In this document: positions 12,101 to 52,821 of the stretch, one piece after another
How positions within the stretch are numbered: the stretch's first letter is position 1
Layout: each line of letters starts with the position of its first letter
Assembly (NCBI RefSeq): GCF_037975245.1
Contig: NC_092569.1
Location: forward strand, 25,796,668 to 25,860,667
Length of the DNA stretch: 64,000 bases
Direction: 5' to 3'
DNA from: Apostichopus japonicus
Taxonomy: Eukaryota; Echinodermata; Holothuroidea; Aspidochirotida; Stichopodidae
Position numbers and translations under genes: made by a program
The notes under the pieces: generated by a model
The model's database searches: none
What the model was told of the DNA's origin: nothing
Seen by the model: the letters and a program-made list of their open reading frames with translations, nothing else

Positions 12101-15100
12101 TGGAGCCGTTTCATATCAAACTCTTTTGACCTGATTTTTAGGAGGGATTGAGGTTGTTTCATGACTGGGTCCCTCATTGATCCCTTGCCTAATACTTACC
12201 CCTCCTGTGATGATTATTGTAACTGTACATTGTTCTTTTGACCTTGTATTTTAGGAGGGATCGAGGTTTCATGACTGGGTCCCTCGTTGCTCCCTTGCCT
12301 GATACTTACCCCTCCTGTGATGATTATTGTAACTGTACATTGTTCTTTTGACCTGATTTTTAGGAGGGATGGAGGTTGTTTCATGACTGGGTCCCTGATT
12401 GATCCATTGCCTGATAATTACCCCTCCTGCGATGATTATTGTAACTGTACATTGTTCTTTTGACCTTGTATTTTAGGAGGGATGGTTGTTTCATGACTGG
12501 GTCCCTCGTTGCTCCCTTGCCTGATACTTACCCCTCCTGTGATGATTATTGTAACTGTACATTGTTCTTTTGACCTGATTTTTAGGAGGGATGGAGGTTG
12601 TTTCATGACTGGGTCCCTGATTGATCCCTTGCCTGATACTTACCCCTCCTGCGATGATTATTGTAACTGTACATTGTTCTTTTGACCTGATTTTTAGGAG
12701 GGATGGAGGTTGTTTCATGACTGGGCCCCTGATTGATCCCTTGCCTGATACTTACCCCTCCTGCGATGATTATTGTAACTGTACATTGTTCTTTTGACCT
12801 GATTTTTAGGAGGGATGGAGGTTGTTTCATGACTGGGTCCCTGATTGATCCCTTGCCTGATACTTACCCCTCCTGCGATGATTATTGTAACTGTACATTG
12901 TTCTTTTGACCTGATTTTTAGGAGGGATGGAGGTTGTTTCATGACTGGGTCCCTGATTGATCCCTTGCCTGATACTTACCCCTCCTGCGATGATTATTGT
13001 AACTGTACGTTCCAAGAGGGTCTTATACAGGAGGATAACTGTACCGATGTCATGCCCAGACCTGCAAACTGTTCGTGCGGATGTCATTACGAATGTCAGG
13101 AGGTGATTATGGAAACTTAAAAGCTTTGAAATTGATTTAATGTTAAGATATGAAACATGTTCTTTCAGCAGGGTAGGAACAACATTCCATTACATTCAAC
13201 ACCATTTGTCCATTTCTTAAATATTAAAAGTTGTATAGAAATACCGCCTGGACTGCTGGCAGTGTTTCCTAATGGTGTATTGCATATTCAACATTAATTT
13301 TACGCTCTTCGTTAAACCTCTAGCGACTTTCCTAATTTTCTCATTTTTGCATTTTGAAAATGAAAACTTTCCACTGTAGGTAATATGATTATTGCCTTAG
13401 TATATGTAATATTTATGTTGGAAACTTTGTGGCAATTTTTCGGATGTGCAAGGAGTTTTGGTTGTTAATGTTGGTCTGGGTTTATCAAGAAGTCATTGGT
13501 TTGAATCCCACTCCAACCATAGATTTTATTATTTTCCCAGTCAGTTGTCTGTCTTTCATTTAATTCTCTATTAGTGTAAAATTTTGTTTATCTCAGTTTA
13601 CTTTCCATAAATCATATCCAGATATGACTAAGTTTTGACAAAAAATATGGTTGGTTCTTAACAGTGCTAGATAATTAAGCATTATTCCAAGTCAAACATA
13701 TCTTTTTGCTCCTCCTATTTCTTTTCAGGAATTACCATCTTGCCAGGAAAGCTGCTTCACCTGTCAAGACTGCAACTCGACTTTATGCTCAGCTGATTGT
13801 GAGCTGCTGTATCAGAACTGCACCACTACTTGTTGCGAGAGGGATTGCAGCCAGGAATCGAATGCGTGCATGGCCGATTGTAGCCGCTGTGATCAGTTAT
13901 TGGGATGCAGCGTCCAAGAATGTAGAGCAGCATGTCAAAACAACCATGAATTGTGTAATCGAGGATGCCACCCTGTATTTACCTCTTGTGGAAGCAACTG
14001 TACATCTGCTGCAGTGCTCTGCTCAAGTCACTGTGTCGACCAAGTGTGTCAGAATGTAACATCCTCGAATGACGAGTTCCATTCGGGAGCAACGAAAGGA
14101 GTGTGTCTATCAGAGTGTCGAGAGAATTGCGATGCCGTCGAATGGAACTGTACGAAAGGCTGTTGCACGGAGAAATGTGATGGCCAGGGCGACGTGTGCC
14201 TTGCCGGTTGCATGAGGACTTGTAAGTCGGATGTACCTTGCACGGAATACTGTACATCTCTATGCAATACCAGCCTTGCAGACTGCTCGTTCGACTGTGA
14301 GTTGGCATCAGCATCATGCTCTGGTCGGTGTGACCTCCACGAATTCTCCTGTAGGGAGGAATGCCCTGTGGAGTGCCACGAGGAGATCTGCTGGCAAGAC
14401 ACTCTTGTTACTTGCACAGCATTAATGGATGTTACGACCGATCAAAGTTACCTAACTCCTAATACCACTGAAAGCATACTGGATCATGCTGGATCTGAAA
14501 TGCTCCCGACTAATTCTACCTTACCATATATCACGGTTGAATCAAGTAGCACGACAGGATCAAGCCAAACAGTACAGAACTATACCACAGATCATCCTAA
14601 TACCACTGAAAGCATACTGGATCCTGCTGCATCTGAAATGATCCCTACTAATTCTACCTTACCATATTTCACTGTGGAATCAAGTAGCATTTTTTCCACA
14701 ACAGGATCAAGCCAAACGGTACAGAACTATACCACAGCTCATGTGACTATTGTGAGTCAGTCAGATGTGCAAACTGCAACTGTTGATACTGTCATCATGG
14801 ATACAACCGGCTTGTCTAACAACACCGAGCAGAGTACCAGTGAGGAGAGCATTACCGGGTTATATAATACTACCATCTTCAGTAGTGCCTCGCAGAACTT
14901 TACCCTGCAAGATGTCAGCTTGCCCGATAACTCCACTCAAAATGCCTCCACGAACGATAGCGAGAATGGCAGTGAAATCCACCGATTTGTGAATGCGACA
15001 AGCAACTGTACCGTAGTGAGAAGAGAAATTTGTGAAGAGGATCACACTGTAGCTTGTGGTGACACGTGCAAGAGTGATTGTTGGAAGACCGGTAATGTTT

Positions 15101-18100
15101 GCAGGAGGGACTGTTGCAGAGATTCATGTATCACACAGCTACAGGATTGTCAGGCGGTCTGCAGGGTGAATTGTACCAATGACGATGAATGTTATAAGTT
15201 TTGTAGATTCGTCTGCGAGGACGAATATGAGACATGTTCCAATCCCTGTAATTTGATGGAACATCGCTGCAATTCAGACTGCCGAAGCAGTGAGCAGATT
15301 TGCGTCGGTCAGTGTATAACATGTCAATCAGTATGGAACTCAACTCAGATGGCTACTAGCACCATGGCTACTAGCACCATGGCTACTAACACCATGGCTA
15401 CTAACACCATGGCTGCTAGCACCATGCCTACTAACACCATGGCTACTAGCACCAGCTTACAGCTAACAACAAATGGAAGTGCTGTAATAGATGGTATGAA
15501 TTCAACATGCTCTTGTAACCAAAGCACTGCATCAAGTTCGAATTACTTGTTTGAGTTTAATAACTCCACAGAAGACTACAACTGCTCCTGCGGCAACTCC
15601 AGTGGTATCGTGCGGCCACAGTTCGTCGGTGATGTTTGTGGCAAGTCGAACATGTCTCAGTGCACGCTCGCCTGTAACTCGTCGGTGGCGAGATGTTACG
15701 AAGCCTGCCCGTGCGAGGAAGGCTGTCATATCGACGCTGCTTCTTGTCGGTTGACCTGCAGAGGATGTCAATTGCCCTGCTATGACCAGTGCTATGGTAA
15801 CTGCTCAACAGCTGTGTCTGAATGCCAAGAAAATTGTGAACAAAGTTTGATGAGAATGGAGACCCTGTATGAATGTATTGACTTGTGCAACAGTTCATGT
15901 GTCAATGTCTGCTTTACAAACCAGACCGAGAATATGGCATGCATGACTGATTGCAGCAGACACAGAGCGCAGTGTATATCCCAATGTACTACACAGTATC
16001 TGGCTGTCTGTACTAACAAAACCAACTTCAACTATCATTGGAATAACAGCACATCCACAGGAGGAGCAGATGTATTATCTACTGCTCGCACAGACATGAC
16101 TGGATACGCTATAGGAAGGAATGTAACATATAGCTACAATAGTACAGTACCTGCATTGCTAGAGAATTCAACTTCCATTAGTGATATACTGGATTCCTCA
16201 CCAGATGAGAGCGTGCTTGTTACCGATGATGTCACCACTCAGACAGATGGAATGGTTACGCCGTTGAGCAACAACGTCACCACGGTGATGTATGTGGGCG
16301 GCAGCAAGGCATCTGATTCAACCACCCATGTGTGTAGCGTAATATGCTTGAACACTCTCGACATCTGCCTGAATGGAACTGAAGTCAATGCAACATTCAA
16401 GAATGTGTTAAATTGTTCAGATCAGTATGACATTTGTATCGCACATTGCATTGGCGACCACACCCAAACCTGTTGTCGAGCGGCATGCTCCTCAGACAAC
16501 GCGACGTGCATCCTGTCCTGTTCGAGGTGCGACGGTTGTCTCGGAGACTGCAAGGATTCATGCGACAGCTTTCAGGATAGTTGCATATCCAATTGCCAAA
16601 GACTGGAGAATCGTAGCAATAGATCTGTGGACTGTGATGCATATGCAAGCTGTGCTCTAGGATGTAAGAACAAGACTGATCAGAACTGTACACTAGCGTG
16701 TTTACAATTGCACATCGACAGAAACTGCAGCTCGGTTGCAAACTGCTCTGCTTTGGATGATGTATGTTTGTCACATCGCAGAAGAAAGAGAGGTTGCAGG
16801 GAGGCACAGATCATCTTCAGGGGTACCCCGGACACACTAAGCGAAACAGTCGTTTTCCATCGAGGGAGAAGATCCGCGCAACAGAACGACACTTTGGCGG
16901 GAAATGTGAGCAGCCCGCACGGACACAACCGGTCCCACGATCTATGTAATGTCTATCAACAGTATCGGAGGAATCTAACGGAATACAAGGTGGTGGCCTG
17001 TCAAAATTCATCCTTCACATGTTCCTCTGAGAACAGAACCCATTGCTGTGAGGTCAACGGCTCCTGTGTGAATCGTGACAATAGCAGCGTGTGTGGGGAT
17101 GATCTTTATGACGACGCTCCTATAAGACTCAAAGATTGTATAGCCGATTGCCGGCTTACATCGACCTACTGTGACAACCACTGTCAGAATTGTTCGGACT
17201 CAGATCAATGTTTGGGAATCTGCTCTGAGGTCTGCCATTTCGTCGAACCCATCGACCGTTCTGCAGAGTGTGCGGAGCACTGTGTCTCGTCATTGGTCTC
17301 AACGAGTTGCTCCCAGGATTGCAACTCTTCTTGCCCGAATGGTGCTGGATCTTTGAGCTGTGCTGATTGTAACAATCGTACTTTCATCTCGACCAGTCAG
17401 AACTGTTCTGATCTTGTCTCGACCAATAGCAGCTCACATGACGAATGCCTGGCGCTGGTAGTATACCCAGACTGCACTTGCAACTGCAGCTGTGAAAAGA
17501 CCGAGAGGAAGGCCTTCAAGTGGAGACGTAAGTATGTTTTGAATTTTTGTTGAAGCTTGATGGAGGGTTAAGTAAAACTGAAGGGTGCGGAAATGAGGTG
17601 TAGAGGGGAAGGGGAGGGTAGGGGTATGTAGAAATAGGTGTGATTTGACAAGAAATTTAAAATCTCCAACAAGTATAGTTATTGCAAATGGGATGACAGA
17701 AATAAGTGATCAAAGAAGGTATATAGCATACTAACATTGGTAGTGAATGAAATATGACACCTAGCACTTGTTACAAATAAACTGTTAGTTTTTCAGCCCT
17801 TTAATATCCACTGGCTTATGTGACCAATTTTCCAGTGCATCACATTCTAGTCTTCCGTCAGGGTGTGTTACACCACACTTGCATCAGTCGGGTTCGCAGG
17901 AAATGAATAGAATGACCAATTGCTATGTCGCCCTCACGTTTAGATCACCCTTTGGCATTATGATCAGATTGAATAAATGTAACTAATGAAATAAAATTAT
18001 GAAAATTATCTAGCTCATAAAATGGGATTGAGCTGCAACATTGTAAATCAATATATATTACCATCATCACTGCTTTTTTTTTTCTACAACATTTTTTTAA

Positions 18101-26515: not shown

Positions 26516-26989
26516 AAATACAACATGTGCTCTGAATTTTGTGCCTATATTAAGATTAAAATATTTATTTTCTGGTTGAATCCTTAAAATGTTGCCCCGA
26601 ATCGACGACACTTTTGTTTTTATTTGTCCTGTAATCTGCGTTCCATGATTTATTTACAGCTCCTTCCGTTCCTTTCTGTTTGTTCAATGATAGTTACTCC
26701 AAAATTCTACATAAATTCATCCAGTAATCACGGAAAAGAAAACACGATGCAGGTATATGCAATTCCGAAAAGCCTTTCAGGCTAACTTAAGAACATATTT
26801 ATTTTGTAAATGAGAGCGGTCATAATAACAGGGCGCACTTTATGCAACCACCTAATAAAGTAATAGTAGGCCTACACTCTTAAAACACCTGGGTCATATT
26901 CATGACCCAAACGCAGGGTCGATGGTCTTATAACCCAATTTGGGTTGTACCATACACTAAGCTGACCTAATGCTAAGTCCGAAACTGAC

Positions 26990-27180
26990 TTTCATCAACG
27001 AGTCAAAATAATATTGGACTATGATTGGTCAACATTATAGGAATATGAGTGCACCATGTCAGATCAGCCAATCAACGAACACACATTGACCGTCCGATCA
27101 TATTGGCCCTGCGCGCGCGCCATAGACAAATTGGCTGTAGAACAAGTTTGCTGACAGAGCGAACATGATTAGAAGCACAA
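26990..27180 (+). promoter_or_regulatory. CCAAT-rich promoter of the transposon's SAM gene
   Basis: Five CCAAT/ATTGG boxes (27012, 27024, 27068, 27102, 27130) and a GCGCGCGCGC run at 27110-27120 lie just upstream of the ATG at 27181. The local GC rise and the lack of a TATA box suggest a dispersed-start promoter. An upstream ATG at 27164 opens a short out-of-frame ORF. Confidence 0.55.
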
Positions 27181-30100
27181 ATGGATTCGTTCGTGAAAGA
27201 TAAATTAGAAGAATGGGGCTTGATGGAATGGGCTAATTCATTTCAAGGTATGGTATCATGTGCAAATATCTTTTTTAATATGTAATTAAATTTCAAGAAA
27301 TGCTGAAGTAGCATACGAAGACTTAACGTATGGCTAAGTCGGTGACTAATTCGTAGTCGTACTAGCCTATAGCCTAACGCTAAGCCATAACATAGGCTAG
27401 GCCTGTAAAGAGTACACTATTGCAGTTGAGATTGAGATGATGTATACATGTACGGAACCTCTAGTATCTGATAGATAAATCCACAATCCTAATTGAACTG
27501 TATATTTAAAATAAATATGACGATGCACAACTGCATAAGTAAGCATTGTTGACAATGCATAAGTAGCCTAGGGCCTAGGCCTAAGCAATGTTGTGCCAAG
27601 TTTGGTAAGTAAATATGATGAGGCCTAGGCCCCTAGGCGAGGCCTATTTGCGATCATGAGGGTCAGCGATCATGAGCATGACGGCTAGATTTAGACATGC
27701 TAATGGAGTGGGTTTTTTTGTACACACAGGGCAGCTACTGAAGTGTGAAACATTTGGAATATGCGTAATGTCGTAGGCCTACAGTAGCCTAATGTTAGGC
27801 CTAGGCTAGGCACTACTGCGCATAGTGTTATAGGCCTAACGTTAGGCCTAGTTATGGAACAAGCCCCAGTGACCAAAAAAAATCATCAGCGTTTTTACCA
27901 GAATTTTAGGGTTACTGTAGGCCTAGGCCTAAATAACAAAAATAGCTTTGCCTAGCCTAGACCTACTGTAGCCTAGGCCTAATGTTACATCTGATTAAGC
28001 AGTAAGTTTACTAACATAGCTTATCAGACTAGGCCTAGGCCTACCAAAAAAAAGACAAAGAAGACCAAACAAGAGGCAGAACTTGGAATAAATTTACAAC
28101 AATTTCATTTAAAAATTTCTTGGCAATGAAAATTTTGAATTTTCATACAAAATTAACATTTAGGCCTAGCCTAGAATGTTAGGTCTTTTTGGTCAAGATG
28201 TGAAAAAAAACAGCCCGTTTTGCATATATTATGGTTGAAAATAAGTAGGCCTAACAGATCTTATTTGTTCATAGCACTTTTTGAGCATGTTGCTACGGTA
28301 ATATTGGAACGTATTGTTAGGTAGCCTAGGTTTATATGCATTATACGGCCCCCGCATTATTCGGGCATCTTGATATACCCTACGATAAGTACTTGAATAT
28401 TAATTCTACAAATTAAGTATGTACAGTTAAGCAGGGGGAGGGGGGCGTTGTTGTAAGTAAGTAGCACTGGGTGCCTGTATACTGTGCACTTTTCAGCTAA
28501 ATTGCTTCAACATTCATTGAAAATATTCGGATTATGATGCCTGCACCAGGCAAACCTCAATCTATATAGGCCCTGGCATAATTGCCAAGGTTCGAAATAT
28601 GTGGTAGTTCAGTAGGCTGTAGCGGAGTGTAGCCCTAGACGACCAAATATACGTTGGACTACCAGAACTGTCAGAACACTGAGTAGCAGTAGTCCGGTGG
28701 GCTACCAAAATTTCCCAACTTGAAAGCTATTGTTTGTGATAAACTGTTTTCACCCACACACACAATGTGTAAATCTTTTCTATAGCAATATTGTATACTG
28801 TATGTCATGAATCATCATCGTTTAAAAAATTATAGGAAAAAATGATAAAAAATAATAAATTGGACCAAGTTTACCATAATAGAACAACACAAAATGGCTG
28901 CCAAGTTTAAATCTCATCTATACAAAAAACAATGATAACTAAAAAATTTTTATTATAGATTAGGCCTACCTACAAATAGTTCAAAAATTATATCCTTCTA
29001 TAGAATCACATTTAAATTATGCTTCTTCCTCTGGAAAATACAAAACAATTTGTGGAGTTGACTACTGGTACGCAAAATGTACATACTTTATCTAAACCAA
29101 AATGGCATATTAATACATTTTTATTGGTAATATTATGTTACCTGAATATTTGCTGCACGTACTTAATTCAGGTGTTATTTTGTATTTTAGTCATAATTCT
29201 TCTATTTATTTTTTACATTTCTATCATATATTTTTCTATACAATCTAATCTTTTATAACCTTTTAACTTTTATACTTTGAACAAATTTTTTATCTTTTGC
29301 TGTAAAGCGCTTTAGAGCAATTTTTTAATTGAATAAGGCGCTATATAAATTTTGTGTAATAATAATAATATTTCTTAAGAGGTTGAATATTAATCACTCT
29401 ACTCTAGTCCTAGTTTTTTCACTGTCTTGTTTAATTTTTTGGCATTTAAAAAAAAGTTCAACCACATCATTTGTTAAAACTGTGCAATTCATTCAAACTA
29501 TACTGTCGTTTATAGTTTGCACACCTACTACTGAATTATTATAGGATTGTACGAGAAAAGCGTTTCTGTGTACACTCACCTTGGACTGCACCAGTCCATC
29601 ATTAAAACAGTATTTTTCTATGTGCAAACAGTAGCTTCTTCACAACACCTAGATTCTATATTCCTTTATCCCTTCGTGGGACTGACTGATTTATAGGCAT
29701 AAGTAGGTCCTTAATGATTCTGAATTCAAAATTAAACACTGTGCTTAACTGAAATTAAACACTGTTTGTAGGTAATATAAGAGGGTATGAGTGTTTGTGG
29801 AATATTTGGCATTAAAATGATAAATTGATATTTGGATTTAAGAAATTCAAAAAAATTAATCTGATTTGAATAAACACAATCTGGTTTTAATCATTTTTTT
29901 AATAGGAAAAATCAACAACCCTGCTGTGAAGTGAGAAATTGAGTCGTTCATCTCCAATCTTGAACAAATATTATATATAGTTTATCATCAAAACCAGGTT
30001 TGAGAAATATGGTGATATTTGATGTTAGCAAAGAGACAAAGGATACATTTCAAATTATTCAATCAGTGGGAGAATATCCCTTCAGGATTTTTGCCTAGAT

Positions 30101-33100
30101 GGCCAAATGAACTTCTTAAGCCATTGGTTGGTTCCACATAGTGCATACAAGTATATAGCTAAGCTAACTCTGTAGTCTGTATCAATCAAATGTTCATTGT
30201 CTCAATGCCCCTTTTTCTTGGTTTTCAGAGAATTTCATTGACAAAGAAATCTTTGTCCTATTAGAAATGGAAACTTTAAAAGAGCTGATACCTCCCCTTG
30301 GACCACGCATGAAGGCTGCTAAGAAGATCAAGGAGCTAAATTCCGAACAGAATGAAACAACAGTGGTGGTATGTTCAACTTCTTAAATTCTGCTGAACTT
30401 GATTATAAACACTGGGCAAGATGGGATTTGTTTGTTTCAGATGTGGCCATTTGATATTAGGTCACAGCAAGGCCCTAATATGGCATTTTAAGAACATTCA
30501 TTCACTAGTAAATGGGAGGTATTTCACAGGACCCATCACATGTATGCAGGATGGCTGCATGAGAACATTCAAGAACCATGTATCTACATTTAAATCCCAT
30601 GTGGAAAAAAAACATGAAATGTATGGAGCAAATGAAGTTCCCTTGCTTGATGATGCTGATGAGTTGAATGCTAGCGATCATAATTCATCAGATGATAATG
30701 AGCCATTGCGTGGGGACCATGATGAGCAACCTATTCCAAATGTTCAAAATTGGGATGATTTTGACAAAGCAGAGATAGAACAAAGGATTGCCATCTTTCT
30801 CGCAAAATTGCTGGCTTCAAGCAGTGTCGTACAGTCAACAATAGACGGTGTAGTTGGTCATACATCTGATTTATTAGATGATGTCGTTGGCTACTTGAAG
30901 CACAAAACCTCCCAGTTTGCTCAGCAAAACATGATTCAACCTAATGATCTTTCATTTTGTTCCCTGATGGAGGATTTTGAAAAATGTGAAAACACCTTTG
31001 ACAGATTCATAGGGGTTTACATGAGAAAGAAGTATTTCACACAAAGTGGTGTATTCCTGGCACCTAAGGAGATCCCTATTGCAGTAGCATTCTATCAAAG
31101 GAGGAACAGAATGACAGGAAATGTCTCTCAAGTGTTGAAAAATGTTTCTTTTCAGTATGTGCCCATTAAACCACTGATGAAACTTATTTTAGAAAGTAAA
31201 GGTTTCTTAGAGAACATCGAAATGCATGAGCCCAGTCTTGATGGGTTAATGAGAGATTTCCATGATGGGGAATACAGCCAACAAAATATATTCTGTAGGC
31301 ACAAAAGGAACATTCAGTTGCTTTTCTACATTGATGACTTTGAGGTTGCAAACCCACTTAGTCCAAAGGCTGGTACTCACAAGCTTGGTGCTGTTTATTG
31401 CACCATAACCAACATACATCCGAAGTTTAGATCATCGCTAAATAACTGTCATTTAGTAATGTTGTTCAATGCTGGTGATGCTAAACTGTATGGGTATGAG
31501 CCAATATTTGACCCACTAGTTGAAGATCTTAATTCATTAATACATGATGGTATACAAATTGAAGCACCCACCTTTCAAGGGACTGTACGTGTTGGACTAG
31601 CACAAGTTACAGGTGATAACCTTGGATTACACTCTCTCTTTGGCTTTGCCCAAGGATTCACTGCCAATTACCCGTGCAGATTTTGTAAGATGCACCGAGC
31701 TGAAGCCCAGTTATCTACATCTGAGAATGTTGGGTTACTCCGCACTAAAGACAACTATCAAATGGATGTGAATGCTCAAGACCTTCCAAATACAGGTGTG
31801 AGGTCCGACAGTCCCCTAAACAAAATTCACCACTATCATGTCACTCAAAATTTTGCTCCGGATATCATGCATGATCTTCTAGAAGGTGTGTGCCCACTGG
31901 AGCTCAAATTGGTGGTAAAAGCTCTTATTGACAAAAGATTGTTCAACATTAATCTGTTGAATAGTAGGCTTGTTAGTTTCAACTATGGTTCTGGTGATAA
32001 CCAGAACAAGCCATGTATCTTCTCTGCTTCTAGTATGACTAATCCAGATGGTGCTCCAGGGCAAAATGCTGCCCAAATGTGGTGTTTGATACGACACTTT
32101 CCACTTATGATGGGTGATTTAGTGCCAGAGGATGATGAGCACTGGGAACTGTTAATTTTGTTGCTTAAATGCATGGACATAATATTTTCACCAGTTATAA
32201 AGTGTCACAGTGTACCTCAAACACCTCATTCAAGATCATCACCAACATTTTCTTGAACCGTTTGGTAATGCAAGGCAATTGAAACCAAAACATCATCATA
32301 TGATACACTACCCAATGGCCATCCAGAAACTTGGTCCTCTAACAAGATTTTGGGCTATGCGCTTTGAGGCTAAACACAATTTTTCAAGGAGACTTTCACA
32401 CATAGTGTGTAATTTTCAAAATATTGCAAAGACATTAGCTTACAGGAACCAAATGTTGCTGTGCTATAATCTCTTGTCACAATTGTCACTCGTTGGGGAT
32501 GAAGTTGAAATCGGTCCAGGGTCATCAGTTCTTGTGGCATCAATTACAGACTCAGATGTTGTCCACATAAGGCTAAGACTAGGTTTATACGACGAAGTAT
32601 TCCTTGCAAATTGGTGCAAAGTATTTGGACACACATACAAGAAACATCAGATGGTGGTTGTTGGAAAGAATGTTGAACTAGATCCAGTCTTCGGTAAACT
32701 TGTTAACATTATTGCAGTAGAGTCTGGAGTTAGATTGATTTATGAAGAATGGCTGACAACTGGATTTTCCAGGCACCTACATGCATACAAAGTTGAAGCA
32801 CAGGAGCCACGAAAAACAGAAATTTGTCGTATTGATGACTTGCTTGATTACCACCCTCTCCAAATGATTCAGAGTGGACCTCCAAATGATCCAGCTTTCT
32901 GTGTTGTCACAAGATACAAATTTTGAATGGGTATGTATTTTTTAGTTACACGGTCATGATCTTTTTTCGTCACAGTACCGAACAGCAATTCTTGAAAGCT
33001 GCTCACATTTACTGGTCCCTAAAGATTCCTCAGAATCCAAAGATGACAATGATGTTAGTCAATCGTTATGCCTGGGCCTATCAATCTTAACATATGTGGT

Positions 33101-36100
33101 ACAGTATTGCTTCGGAAGTGAAATTGGGCCACCTGTTAATGGCGCAGGTATGGGACCAAGTAAGAGTGAGAAAGGTGTTGGTTGTCAGGTTTATATGGAT
33201 TTAGGAAGGGAAGTGAGGGTCGCCAACATACCTATAAGGACTATGGCTAGGGCTGGAATGAGGTCCACAATTTTCAAAACATACCTCCATCCACTGAAAC
33301 TCGAAGACCTAATGTCACCCCTGTTGAAGTGTTTGGACTCTACTTGATGGTGCAGTAGGTCTTATTGATCATATTGTTACTGAAACAAATCTATATGCAG
33401 GTCAGATGAACCCTCAGATCGCCAGTGGATTGTAGTCACACCTGAAGAAATCTGTGCATTTTTAGCTCTACTTTTACAAAACAACTTTACAGAGTTTTAA
33501 TATCCATAATGTCTAGAACCCGATTCCGTACCATAATCAAATATTGGCATCTTATTATAATATTGCTGTTCTGAACGACACATTCCACAATGTTAGACCC
33601 TTTCCGGATTTAGTCACCCTACACTTCACATGAAAACATCACCCAACGAGAGCAGGGACCATTGGGGTTCATCCAGTACAGTACATGCCCACAAAGTGAA
33701 TAAAAGGGGGTATGGAAGCGTATGCATTAAATTAATTACACTGGGAAGTGTATACTGGCAAGGAGGAAAACCAACCACCAAAATCCGAGTGCGGCCCTTG
33801 CACCCAGATACCACCAATCCTGACCCAGAGAAATTGTTTGCAAGTGGAAAAGTTGTAGTTGGTGTTGTTGAAGAGCTTGCAAATAAAGGATTCATGACTA
33901 ACCTGGGGATGGGGATATAAGACTGGAGGAGGGAGACCTGCTTCCAAGATCAAGGGGGATAAGATACAGTATAAAATGGTACAAGAAGTCAATTTATATA
34001 AAGAATTTTTGCAGCAAATTTAAAGACAAATGACACTTTTATAATATGAATTATAAAATAGCCAGCGCTGGGAAGTTTGAAGTGCAAAAAATGACCAGCG
34101 TTAAATGGTTCATTTGTTAGAGTTTTTCTTTTTTTCTTTTTGCAGACTCAGGATAGCCAGGCATATCAATCTACATTGCAGTCTCCAACTTTTTCATTAC
34201 AATCACCTAAATCTTTGATAACCACCTCAACACCAGAACATAGCAATACCCCAAAGAGACCGAAGTTACATTTTGTAAGTACTGTACTTCTCCCTTGTAT
34301 AAATCTGCATTGGTATGTGATTGTCATTAATAAGTCTGCCATCTTTTTACAGTAATCGAAACAATTCATCCAGAACTGTTGAAATGGTGCACACATCAAT
34401 CATTACACACCCAATTAACCAGACAGATCTGTCTTCTGTAAGGGGGCTGTTGTTCCCCTTTAATAGGTACAGTGCAAAGCACAACTAAGCTCCAATCACC
34501 AGCTTTGTTCTCGATTTCTCCTTTTCAAAGGATATCCGTAAAATACTAAATGATAACAACGGCGGAGATATCATTGAGTCTGAAATGGACGAAGGACTAC
34601 TTAGTCACAAATATCGGATTCAAGCTGTCAGGATGTTTGTATCACACCTGATAGAACAGTTTGGAGATAGGTATGTACATGTAGACTCAATAAAAGGTGA
34701 TTTGAATTCTATGTCTTTGAGAATTAGTGGTGACCAGTGGTGAACAAACATTTTTAGTTTTCACAATGTTTACTTTTATTTAGCAACTCATTATTTTACA
34801 CAAAATTGTTTATATTTCAGGCCCACATCCCATGTAAAAGAGGCTCTTGCAAGATCCATTGTAAATGAGTTTCCCAAACTGAAGGGAGAAGATGGAGATG
34901 GTTATGTTAGTATCAATTTTTGTCATGTTAGATCACTTCTTTTTTTGGATTACGTTTTCGTACCTTCAGATCAAGGATAGGGCAAGAATAAATGGCCTCT
35001 GTCAATACTCGAAAGACACCCCCTCTGGGAATACATCCAACTTTGTCGGTGAGCTAATGGTACGATGAAGTGTAAAAACAAAAAAGGGATCAGTTAACTC
35101 AATGGTTTACTGTTTTTGTTCTCAGGAAGGGCAGAATTATAAGCACAACGCAAAAATAAAAAAAGGCATAATACCTGCTGTATAATTTCATTTTTTTGTT
35201 CATAGTTTGCTTTAGCAAAATGGAAGATTTTGTTCAAATCGATGCAAACAAATATTTGGTATGCTTTGTGGGATATGTACTCTCAGTTGCATTTTCAAGA
35301 GCATCACGTTACTCCTGTATCTCTAGTTAAACAAAACATCTGAGATGATATGGTCTTATGCTCTGTAGCAGTAGCCAGCAAAAAGAATTCACCTCAGTGC
35401 CAGGATATGGGACATCTACATCAGTTTGGTTGGATGGTCCTCCAAGACTATTTTGCAGCTCTGTTCACAGTCCAAGTCTGGGTACAAAAAATGCTTTCTG
35501 TGCAGACTTGTCACATATTTCATCCTTTTTCAGATTAATCTGGACTTTGAAGTCATCAAGCCAAAGTGTGGGGACAAATTGTTCCTGTTATGGACACCTG
35601 CAGTCGCTAGGAACCTACTGCATTATGCTGACAAGCAAAATGATTGGTCTCGACACCTGGGGATTGTTCAAGACAGCAGTCAACTATCAGGTAACTAAGT
35701 TGCAATAACTTATTAACCCAGGTAAAATGCATGTGAACTGTTTTCATGTGGCACTGCCAGTGATGTTTCAATTGGCCCCCAGTTGAGCTTCACCTCAGTC
35801 AGGGGAAATAATGAAAATGGTGTGTATTTGGAGGAGGGAGTCAGTCAGGGGATTAAGGTGGTCAGGCAACAGAATAGTGTCAAGTATTATGCCTGATTGC
35901 CATATTTCAGTACACAATGCCTCAGGTCTGGCATGGGCACAACCCTGCACAGTCAACATAGATGACATCGGATTTGTTATAAGCTACAAATGTTTTCTAT
36001 TCTCGCATCAGAATTCTGGTAATATTGTATTGCTTCATCGACGAACATTCATTGGCCTGGCATCCACCCAACTTTGGATCACAATCAGAGATGCTGTTGA

Positions 36101-37642
36101 GAAATTGGTGGATTTGTAGAGCCGTCAGAGATCCTATCCACACTATATAATGCATATTGTTCCACTGAAAGACATTTTTTAACTGATATATCATCATATA
36201 TTCCCACAAATGTGTTACCTTATAACACGGGCATAATCAGTGCCTTCATGAGTGTTAAGTCTGTGAATCTTTCCCCAAGGTTCTTATTTTTCCTCTTTAC
36301 AGATGATGAAGTATGCAACATTGCACTGCAGTGTATTCCATGCATTCTACCTGTTGGGTCACAGAAGATAAAGGGCAAAGGAAAACGGGCTACAATTGAA
36401 GATGCCCTCACTTCATTTGTAGATTTGCAAAAGGTGAGCTGAAAGCTAAATTTGAAGTAGAAAAATTCCTTTTATAAGATCATCGTCGGTTACAGGTTCA
36501 TCTAGGAAAATTGACAGACGATAAAATTATGGATGAAACAGGCAAAGAGCTTGCCTTCTCTTCGCGAGCAGTGTACATCGATTGGTGAGACAAGACATTC
36601 ATCAGATACAATCCTACCCTGCTCCTAGAACCACCATTTTATGTTCCCATCTGAAAGACATGAACGATGCATTCAGCCACTTTCCCAAGGGGAATGGTGG
36701 AAGGGGACTATCAAAGCATCGGTCACTAATGCTCTGCAGCTGTGCCAATCAAATGCCTGAAGAACCTCACCAGCCCCAGAAATTGTGGAACCATAACCCA
36801 CTACCACTGCACCAGGTTGCATTGTACAAACCCTTAACCAAATTTATTACAGGTAGAGTTGTAACAATGATTTCTTCATTCCAGTATACACATGATATAT
36901 GAATACATATAAATGTGAATGCAGAATATGTTGAATGTGCAGTAGAAGAGTGTACAATCTAATTCACACAGATTGGATAGGACATTGTGGTATTCCAGGC
37001 AGTATGGTGTGATAGTATAAGTGTCTTGTTAACTTCTGAACACTGTGTTCATCCATAATCAATTGTCAAGGGTTCCTAGATGAGCCTCAAAATAACTTAC
37101 AGAGACCCGACAATTCCTACCTGGCACCTCTAAAACCCACTATGAAATTGTGGCACTATTCATCACTGAAGTTGTGAAATGCTAAATACTGCACATCCTT
37201 GATCAAAACAAAGATTGCTTCTATCAACCTGCCTTCTGGGGAGTACTGCAATATATGATCCTTTCTATATGGAAGGCAGCATTTGAATAAAGCTAACAAG
37301 TTTGCTTCCATAACCTTTGCTTTTTCATTTCAGATTGGAACCAATATTCCACACTACCTTGAAGGGGTGAAACAAAAGCAACCATTCGTTCTAGCTATTG
37401 GAAGCAGCAGGGTTAGCCCGGAACAAACGTACATAATCATAGAGAGAGAAGCCATTCCACAGGAGTCGCTGCTTAATGCCATTGATTTATGTTTTAAATG
37501 TTTTCATGTTTTTGATATGAATTATCAATGGCAATCATACAACACCTGGCAGTTCCTCCAGACTGTTGTATACAACTTACCTGGGAAAATGTCATCTTCA
37601 GTTGTGTCATTGAAGACATATTTGAAAGTCGGAAGGAAGTAG
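27181..37642 (+). CDS. Spliced SAM-domain accessory gene of the CACTA element (SAMD3-like C-terminal half)
   Basis: Exons I support: 27181-27247, 30229-30368, 34146-34274, 34531-34670, 34821-34905, 34970-35048, 35534-35690, 36303-36433, 36496-~36584 and a terminal exon 37334-37642. The first two join in phase to a SAM domain (EEWGLMEWANSFQ + ENFIDKEIFVLLEMETLKEL). Then come a Ser/Thr/Pro linker with a basic KRPK motif, a helical region (YRIQAVRMFVSHLIEQFGDR), and a C-terminal domain like that of SAMD3-like and transposon-linked uncharacterised proteins of fish and invertebrates. A linking exon between 35049 and 35533 is missing (phase 1 to 0), and the joint 36584/37334 is not phase-matched, so the model is incomplete or the copy is damaged. 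It probably acts like a DNA-binding TnpA. Confidence 0.6.
27370..28360. repeat. TAGGCCTA-rich intronic segment
   Basis: The palindrome TAGGCCTA and its parts (CCTAGGCCTA, AGGCCTAGG) occur dozens of times, unevenly spaced, in the first intron of the SAM gene; no regular tandem unit. No coding signal. Confidence 0.75.
29295..29372 (+). mobile_element. L2/SINE-type 3' tail
   Basis: GCTGTAAAGCGCTTTAGAGC, then AAGGCGCTATATAAAT and an (AAT)n tail: the stem-forming 3' end shared by L2 LINEs and partner SINEs. The 5' extent is not defined; it lies within the transposon's first intron. Confidence 0.6.
30421..32926 (+). pseudogene. CACTA/EnSpm-type transposase, interrupted by one frameshift
   Basis: Frame one (30421-32256) has N-terminal C2H2-like fingers (CFRCGHLILGHSKALIWHFK; C-x(4)-C-x(12)-H-x(4)-H), an acidic linker, then a transposase core with CTITNIHPKFRS, a CRFC-x(2)-H cluster and PDIMHDLLEGVCPLELKLVV. 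Near 32200 the reading moves to the next frame, which continues with KPKHHHMIHYP and WAMRFEAKHN to the stop at 32926. These motifs recur in large transposon-encoded proteins of animals. The gene lies wholly within the SAM gene's second intron (30369-34145), same strand. The single shift could be a sequencing error. Confidence 0.75.
32927..34145. other. Remainder of the SAM-gene intron downstream of the transposase
   Basis: A possible exon follows a GTCACAG acceptor at 32975 (YRTAILESCSHLLVPKDSSE...), which might be a spliced C-terminus of the transposase. Open frames at 33096 and 33630 have no recognisable domain. Nothing further is supported. Confidence 0.35.
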
Positions 37643-38999
37643 GGCTGAAAATTTTCAGACCTATTCGCACAGTGCAACACTAGAATTAACTTGGCGATCG
37701 ATTCAACTGTCCATTACAACTCCTTTTTACATGACAGTTGAAAGAATTTGGACACAATTTTGTTCAATGCCGAGCAATCTTTATTATCATCTGAAGTTGT
37801 GTGATTTTAGTTGAAATCTCAACTGTTAGTTGAATCACGTTTATGGGACCAAGGCATACTTGCCTCATATACAAAGCAAAGATATGCTTGTATTCTAAGA
37901 AGAATTGGCAAAACGTTTTCAGCCTGTATGATCATATTTGTTTTCATCTCATAAATTCCAGTTCCAAAGTTGCAGCTCACAAATATTTTGCTGTCATGAA
38001 ATTTTAGAAGCAAATTATATGGATTGTCCCAGTCCCAGTTATCTGCTCTAAATAAATTGCTTGGACTATTTTCAATTGAACGGCTCTTGGAATACAGAAA
38101 TATGTGTATCCATTCTACACATATTTACATATACAATATTTACCTGTGCTGGGTTATGTACAACAGCAGTATAAATATTACACATAATATATGGACTCAT
38201 TACTTAAAGGCTTGCCGCCGTTTAATGAAATCCATGGATAAGTGTTAAAAAGGGGGGGGAGGGGAATCTTCTTTACGAGGCCTAATTTAGTGAACATTTT
38301 CAAGACTGACCATCCAGCACCCCATCTTTTAAAAATTGGCAACCATGTTTTGGTTGTCATTTTCTTCTTTTGTTATTACATCGTAAGTAAGGCAAATACT
38401 TCCCCATGCGAGCTAGTCTATGCTCTAGCTGATAAATATCATTATGAAGACACACACATGTCTAGCTAGAAAGTGTTCGTTCATTCATTCAGCAAATTGT
38501 ATTTTATCCATACAAGTCTAATAAAATGTTGAAATTGTTTATGTAAAAATTGCACTGGGGTAAAAAACATTTTTGATTAATTGGTAACGCTTCAAACAAT
38601 TCCTTCCTTTAGATCTTGTGCTATGGTACCATATTAATGAAACATTCAGTTTTGTTGCAATTTTACATTAGTTTTTAGCAGTTTTTCAGCAGTTCACTTT
38701 CTTTGAAGGAGTTACATCAATAAATTGCATTGTCAAATGAAGCCTTTTGTATTTATGTATTTTTTCCTATAAGAGTCAAGCTGACCCAAATGTGGTTGAT
38801 TTCCATCATAACCCTTGCCGGGGTCAATATTTACCAATATTTCTGGGTCAAATTTACAACCCATAAATTGGGTCACTTATTCTGACCTAATTTTCTGGGT
38901 CAGTTTGACCCAAATGTGTTAGGTTCCCTCCTGACTTTCATTTGGGTCAAAAAGTGACCCAATTTGGGTCAATTTTAACCCAAGTGTTTTTAGAGTGTA

Positions 39000-48027: not shown

Positions 48028-52821
<4,794 letters not shown>

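Follow-up and report, generated by a model that had tools for sequence, protein, structure and literature searches.

A stretch of 64,000 nucleotides of the Apostichopus japonicus genome (contig NC_092569.1, C9:25796668-25860667), referred to below as the window, carries a DNA transposon of 12,123 bp in which a transposase gene lies, on the same strand, within a gene encoding a SAM-domain protein. The ends of this element, its 2-bp target duplication, the residue signature of its transposase and the nested, same-strand layout were all observed, and the layout recurs in divergent families of related elements. Based on these observations, we suggest, with a probability of about 0.68, that the element represents a young cut-and-paste family of the CACTA/EnSpm-Mirage-Chapaev-Transib group, which duplicates 2 bp (usually TA) and produces two proteins from one transcription unit, the SAM protein being an accessory or regulatory partner of the transposase. 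The single transcription unit and the splice switch are what we infer from the sequence.

The element, its ends and its copies

The element occupies positions 26875-38997 and has TA on either side (TA/CACTCT at 26873-26880; GAGTG/TA at 38993-38999). Its two ends pair as the inverted repeat TACACTCTWAAAACACYTGGGT, with 2 mismatches in 22 positions. The first-pass annotation, made from the letters of the window, had given exactly these ends, the TA flanks and the subterminal TGGGTCA repeats, and copies elsewhere in the genome searched (671.6 Mb, 35 contigs) share both ends. The features of the element are as follows; the SAM exons and introns are predicted.

26873..26874, no strand: left 2-bp target site duplication (TA), read from the sequence and backed by the matching non-TA flanks of other copies
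26875..26895, + strand: 5' terminal inverted repeat, CACTCTTAAAACACCTGGGTC, from end comparison and other copies
26890..26947, no strand: 5' subterminal repeats (TGGGTCA, inverted TGGGTCA and an AACCCA/TGGGTT palindrome), from motif analysis
27181..27247, + strand: SAM exon 1, starting with ATG, first part of the SAM domain, from family comparison and the splice model
30229..30368, + strand: SAM exon 2, rest of the SAM domain, matched ahead of the transposase in 22 of 30 loci
30369..34145, + strand: SAM intron 2 (predicted), containing the transposase open reading frame (ORF); its 5' splice site lies 52 nucleotides ahead of the transposase ATG
30421..32256, + strand: 5' portion of the interrupted transposase frame, encoding both C2H2 fingers and the catalytic D, D and CxxC, from the ORF list and alignment
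32201..32926, + strand: remaining portion of the transposase, read in a different frame and encoding HxxxH, the catalytic E and the C-terminus, from the ORF list and alignment
34146..34274, + strand: SAM exon 3 (predicted), from the splice model; no match in families C and D
34531..34670, + strand: SAM exon 4, from family comparison and the splice model
34821..34905, + strand: SAM exon 5, from family comparison and the splice model
35534..35690, + strand: later SAM exon, from family comparison and the splice model, which covers the DNA on either side of 34906-35533
36303..36433, + strand: penultimate SAM exon, from family comparison and the splice model
37334..37642, + strand: last SAM exon, conserved C-terminal region, from genome matches and family comparison
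38782..38984, no strand: 3' subterminal repeats (8 TGGGTCA sites in both orientations), from motif analysis
38977..38997, - strand: 3' terminal inverted repeat, from end comparison and other copies
38998..38999, no strand: right target site duplication (TA), from the sequence

Genome searches gave 28 matches for the DNA of the 5' end and 27 for that of the 3' end, some of them partial. Copies with other ends, which would have spoken against these termini, were not encountered: the 5' end of the window element recurred in all four copies read (the window counted) and the 3' end in all eight (the window, the C8 copy and six more). Near-identical copies have the same ends and different flanks. 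Pairing of end matches yielded four transposase-bearing copies of 12.1-13.5 kb (the window, C8:10889165, C21:14182659 and C20:10784970) and a series of shorter copies of approximately 5.4-9.5 kb, all belonging to the family of the window element (family A). Over about 4.7 kb that include the transposase, the window copy shares 99.5-99.7% identity with the other three, which indicates that these four full copies are recent; within-family identity in six families was 99.5-99.98% over a similar length (~4.7 kb). The copies at C20:10771426-10784970 and C21:14169148-14182659 are about 1.4 kb longer than those of the window and C8, the extra DNA being located between the transposase start and the last SAM exon. 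At the other extreme, a miniature family-A copy of 212 bp (C19:25596742-25596953) consists, by its match coordinates, of the two ends alone.

For 17 family-A copies both flanks were read, and in every one of them the left and right dinucleotides were equal (14 TA, 2 CA and 1 TG). As three copies have matching flanks other than TA (CA at C8:12019722 and C2:15600717, TG at C6:554945), the 2 bp are duplicated target and not element sequence. The ratio of 14 TA to 3 others is biased, since some copies were chosen because their matches ended short of TA; the copies at C14:22336252 (decayed ends) and C22:11720481 (3' flank unread) were left out of the count. Flanking TA was also found in families C (2/2 copies), D (2/2) and K (1/1). 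An empty site was not seen in a search that covered the left flank of the window element only (202 bases), which is unique in the genome.

The motif TGGGTCA/TGACCCA occurs at 13 sites in the element, 10 of which lie inside the 300 terminal bases (binomial P 2e-14, with bounds picked after the sites had been seen). Across the whole window it is only mildly enriched (16 sites versus 9.7 expected; 3 of 100 shuffles reach 16). Families A, C, D and K begin with the shared sequence TACACTCTWAAAA, and families C, D and K carry common TACACTCTAAAAA ends with TA. Subterminal repeats, a feature of EnSpm/CACTA elements, were found in all four and are private to each family, the top hexamers being GGGTCA in A, CCTGGT in C, GTTGGG and TGGGCA in D, and AGTGCT in K. 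This combination of a shared terminal motif with family-specific subterminal motifs looks like a common cleavage end accompanied by a family-specific recognition site. The termini of families B, I and J were not found (in B the DNA read did not reach the ends).

The nested transposase and SAM genes

The first-pass annotation described an intact-length element with the transposase as one ORF at 30421-32926. The size is indeed full, but the transposase frame is broken: it runs from 30421 to 32256 and continues at 32201-32926 in another frame, the shift near 32200 placing HxxxH and the catalytic E out of frame. An open frame of 840 codons is present in three other, near-identical copies (C8, C21 and C20). 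For comparison, the best 30 of 74 scored genome matches were taken as transposase loci (the other 44 were not grouped) and assigned by identity and N-terminus to 11 families, A-K; a 5'-truncated locus, L029, was left out. In the eight families aligned, which are 31-51% identical to the first, residues D305, D399, C419xxC422, H627xxxH631 and E651 are invariant, as are the finger residues C5, C8, H22, H27, C41, C46 and H60. The assignment of residues as catalytic is our own reading of the alignment; so read, the signature (two C2H2 fingers followed by D, D, CxxC, HxxxH and E) fits the CACTA/EnSpm-Mirage-Chapaev-Transib group.

Profile searches gave fainter signals. Pfam Transposase_21 was listed at E <=0.1 in four of the eight families, always below its cut-off (best E 1.9e-5, 24.4 versus 28.6 bits). 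A profile search of PDB returned mainly zinc-finger proteins, matched in the finger part, the best being a weak match to YY1 (E 0.0038); other weak matches were FokI, spore coat protein W and one more (E 0.2-0.75), and neither RAG1 nor Transib was among them. Scans of viral contigs with the transposase, the SAM C-terminus and the transposase profile confirmed no relatives.

The predicted SAM exons 1-5 have GT-AG borders and form a single open frame of 187 codons, and the last three exons are mutually in frame. Once spliced, the SAM domain of family A scores 26.0 bits, above the Pfam SAM_1 cut-off of 23, while the ORF with exon 2 alone stays below it (15.8 bits); the spliced domain of family C reaches 30.0 bits. 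Two further regions of the SAM protein had no Pfam match, and the exon-3 frame matched Peptidase_C48 only, below the cut-off (13.8 versus 20.7 bits). The SAM domain also weakly matches that of Bicaudal C homologue 1 (E 0.0082), which polymerises; such behaviour would suit the assembly of element ends. Both the N-terminus and the conserved C-terminal region appear to resemble proteins annotated as SAMD3-like in fishes and invertebrates. A 12-codon upstream ORF (27165-27203) begins before the SAM start codon and overlaps it, and bears on the translation of either protein.

The placement of the SAM gene at 27181-37642, with the transposase between its exons 2 and 3 on the same strand, agrees with other copies and families. 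Of the 30 loci, 22 (the window included), from eight of the 11 families (A-H), have SAM exon 2 in the 1.5 kb that precede the transposase. This count was obtained independently by tblastn with the window exon (E up to 3.5e-4); the exon-2 profile drew on eight sequences taken from these loci. Later SAM exons lie downstream of the transposase on the same strand in all 11 families. Among all 74 transposase matches, the last SAM exon occurs within 20 kb downstream on the same strand in 22 (21 copies, two matches being pieces of one copy), and never upstream or on the opposite strand. In families C (10.8 kb) and D (12.0 kb), exons 1, 2, 4, 5 and the last three are found in the same order inside the ends, with the transposase each time between exon 2 and the later exons; no counterpart of exon 3 was matched in these two families. 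For five families with no partner among the SAM matches listed, the DNA downstream of the transposase was read. The last exon was recognised there in families I, J and K (E 5e-14 to 1e-17), together with fainter profile matches to exons 4-5 (E 7e-5 to 5e-3), and in family F (E 2e-28), together with a profile match to the penultimate exon. In family H the penultimate exon alone was matched by profile (E 2e-6), the last exon not being within the 3 kb read. As controls, the reversed element and the part of the window outside the element were searched as well, and no match fell below E 0.3.

The distance from the predicted exon-2 5' splice site to the transposase ATG, with sites and counts read by eye, is 52 nucleotides in family A, 50 in C, 40 in E, 58 in F, 23 in G, 20 or 33 in H and 13 in D. 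Since the start codon thus follows the splice site by 13-58 nucleotides in seven of the eight families with exon 2, splicing there, or failing to, would settle whether the mRNA retains the transposase ORF.

Many copies with the SAM C-terminus and without a scored transposase had suggested a retained class of 'SAM-only' elements. This class was rejected, as all three copies of this type that were read over their full or almost full length proved to have internal deletions, which had taken away SAM exons 2-5 too. A separate cluster, C9:12289591-12568603, holds seven SAM C-terminal copies in 280 kb, each with one internal TAA and with no scored transposase nearby; it is perhaps a segmental duplication or a gene cluster.

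Relation to known elements and proposed expression of the two genes

An En/Spm-like nesting had been proposed for this element, and the DNA supports it. According to PMC2613891, En/Spm of maize carries a large ORF in intron 1 of tnpA, TNPA binds the subterminal repeats, and both proteins are needed. The element described here resembles En/Spm and Tam1 of Antirrhinum, as presented there, in having a transposase ORF in the intron of a second gene, a two-protein unit (in our case inferred from DNA layout) and subterminal repeats. It differs from them in its CACTC ends, 2-bp duplication and C2H2 fingers in the transposase, and in a second protein in which a SAM domain, but no DNA-binding domain, is recognised. 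A different second protein is not disqualifying, since TNPA and TNP1 of Tam1 themselves share little sequence (PMC2613891). The nested two-gene plan of maize En/Spm is thus also present, as DNA, in several families of an animal genome, with a different second protein.

The name CACTA, used in the first-pass annotation, is loose in view of the ends and the duplication. Instead of the CACTA ends of EnSpm proper, CACTC was found in A, C, D and K, the four families with ends found, and instead of 3 bp, 2 bp were duplicated in all 17 family-A pairs. For these reasons the element is filed as TA-duplicating CACTA-like (CMCT) and not as strict CACTA. PMC12730594 states that canonical EnSpm duplicates 3 bp and fungal ESTA duplicates TA; it also describes the ESTA/CMCT clade as having CA..TG ends, a TA duplication and, after the second D and before the E, the motifs C(2)C and H(3-4)H, all of which recall our element. 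ESTA is described there from fungi, with TET/JBP genes in three families, and the likeness is one of features, not of tree placement. Another element to compare is SmTRC1 of Schistosoma, which, according to PMC1636069, has a 2-bp flanking repeat in 7 of 14 copies and alternatively spliced transcripts coding for different proteins. With it and other animal and fungal TRC elements, our element shares a CACTA-related transposase in an animal and the 2-bp flanking repeat, and SmTRC1 offers an animal precedent for alternative splicing in CACTA-related elements. Unlike the present element, it is 4.5 kb long, with 54-bp ends starting with CCC (same text). The excerpt of PMC3485254 on zebrafish EnSpm-N6 gives no termini for comparison. 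The word SAM is absent from the main texts of both the SmTRC1 (PMC1636069) and ESTA (PMC12730594) papers, and our searches of a collection of papers, at the level of result listings, turned up nothing that ties a SAM-domain protein to these transposons, which does not prove that no such report exists.

We propose that transcription would begin near the 5' end of the element. Use of the exon-2 5' splice site would remove the transposase as part of an intron and yield the SAM protein; skipping the site would leave the transposase ORF just downstream in the mRNA and give transposase. The latter would bind the family-specific subterminal repeats with its C2H2 fingers and cut at the shared CACTCTWAAAA end, with the SAM protein, probably able to self-associate, being either needed for transposition or limiting it.

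Several observations weigh against this interpretation. In a transcript that skips the splice site, the SAM start codon and the short upstream ORF would precede the transposase, so leaky scanning, reinitiation or an internal promoter would be needed. Families A, C and D share no intronic poly(A) signal (3 in A, 1 in C, 0 in D). The Transposase_21 cut-off was reached in none of the eight families, four of which were not listed at E 0.1, and the spliced SAM domain of family D (14.5 bits) is below the SAM_1 cut-off of 23. Among the 150 SAM matches listed of 686 candidates, 52 of the 74 transposase matches have no SAM partner. Family B has about 630 nucleotides between exon 2 and the transposase ATG. 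Searches for SAM exon 2 in families I, J and K were negative both within 1.5 kb upstream and in the rest of the 18-20 kb read (best E 0.13), and in B, I and J, whose ends were not found, the pairing of SAM gene and transposase is judged by position and is accordingly putative. In a ten-family tree, I, J and K form one supported clade (100/99), and both other groups have SAM exon 2; as the root is unplaced, loss and gain of this exon are not separable.

Some of these points would suit two independent genes packed together, the transposase having a promoter of its own inside SAM intron 1 or exon 2, unlinked to SAM splicing. The transposase has its own ATG and a frame different from that of exon 2, which when read on into the intron stops at 30386; the spacing in family B leaves room for a promoter, and families I, J and K keep a transposase with no recognised SAM exon 2. 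On the other hand, a shared pre-mRNA, of the kind described for En/Spm and SmTRC1, explains more simply why splice site and ATG are so close together in seven of eight families and why divergent families have the same nesting. We regard independent promoters as unlikely, though deserving of attention. An insertion of a transposon into a host SAM gene, or the recent capture of such a gene by one element, is scarcely credible: a host-type gene does lie nearby (NXPE-like, 49903-52821), but in families A, C and D the termini enclose the SAM exons, and eight families spread over the tree have these exons together with the transposase, so that the copies already contradict it.

Compatible with a single transcription unit, and differing only in the binder, is the role suggested in the first-pass annotation, in which the SAM protein would correspond to TnpA and bind TGGGTCA, and the transposase would correspond to TnpD and cut. 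The En/Spm-like layout agrees with it, repeat differences between families would be expected if a dedicated binder co-evolves with its sites, and several sites form inverted pairs, which would suit a dimer. However, the SAM protein has no recognised DNA-binding domain, its two further regions and exon-3 frame having yielded nothing beyond the Peptidase_C48 match below cut-off, and the transposase fingers, invariant in eight of eight families and weakly similar to YY1, are at least as good a candidate. Moreover, strong AGTGCT repeats (P 7e-19) are present in family K, in which the C-terminal SAM exon is retained but exon 2 was not recognised. Binding by the SAM protein is not supported so far and seems improbable to us.

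Returning to the splice-switched unit, a broader suggestion, which we offer tentatively and at somewhat less than even odds, is that an ancient TA-targeting, CACTA-like animal lineage has kept this SAM/transposase unit through deeply diverged families, with a second protein that differs from plant TnpA, the SAM protein serving as an obligate partner or brake that assembles the ends. The many genes annotated as SAMD3-like in animals might then be transposon genes or their tamed descendants. The layout makes two ideas testable, namely that the proportion of transposase to regulator depends on a single splicing decision, and that a class of animal SAM-domain genes descends from transposons.

Other sequence features

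Elsewhere in the window, positions 13675-17553 form a single open frame of 1,292 codons, rich in cysteine, serine and threonine, with no Pfam match at E 0.001. The NXPE-like host gene pieces at 49903-52821 match Neurexophilin (E 1.8e-9) and NXPE4_C (E 2.3e-36). Repeats of TGGGTCAGGACTTAGTTTGGGTCA at a spacing of about 229 bp form satellite-like arrays at C5:8247829-9062153 and C6:2432812-2450431.

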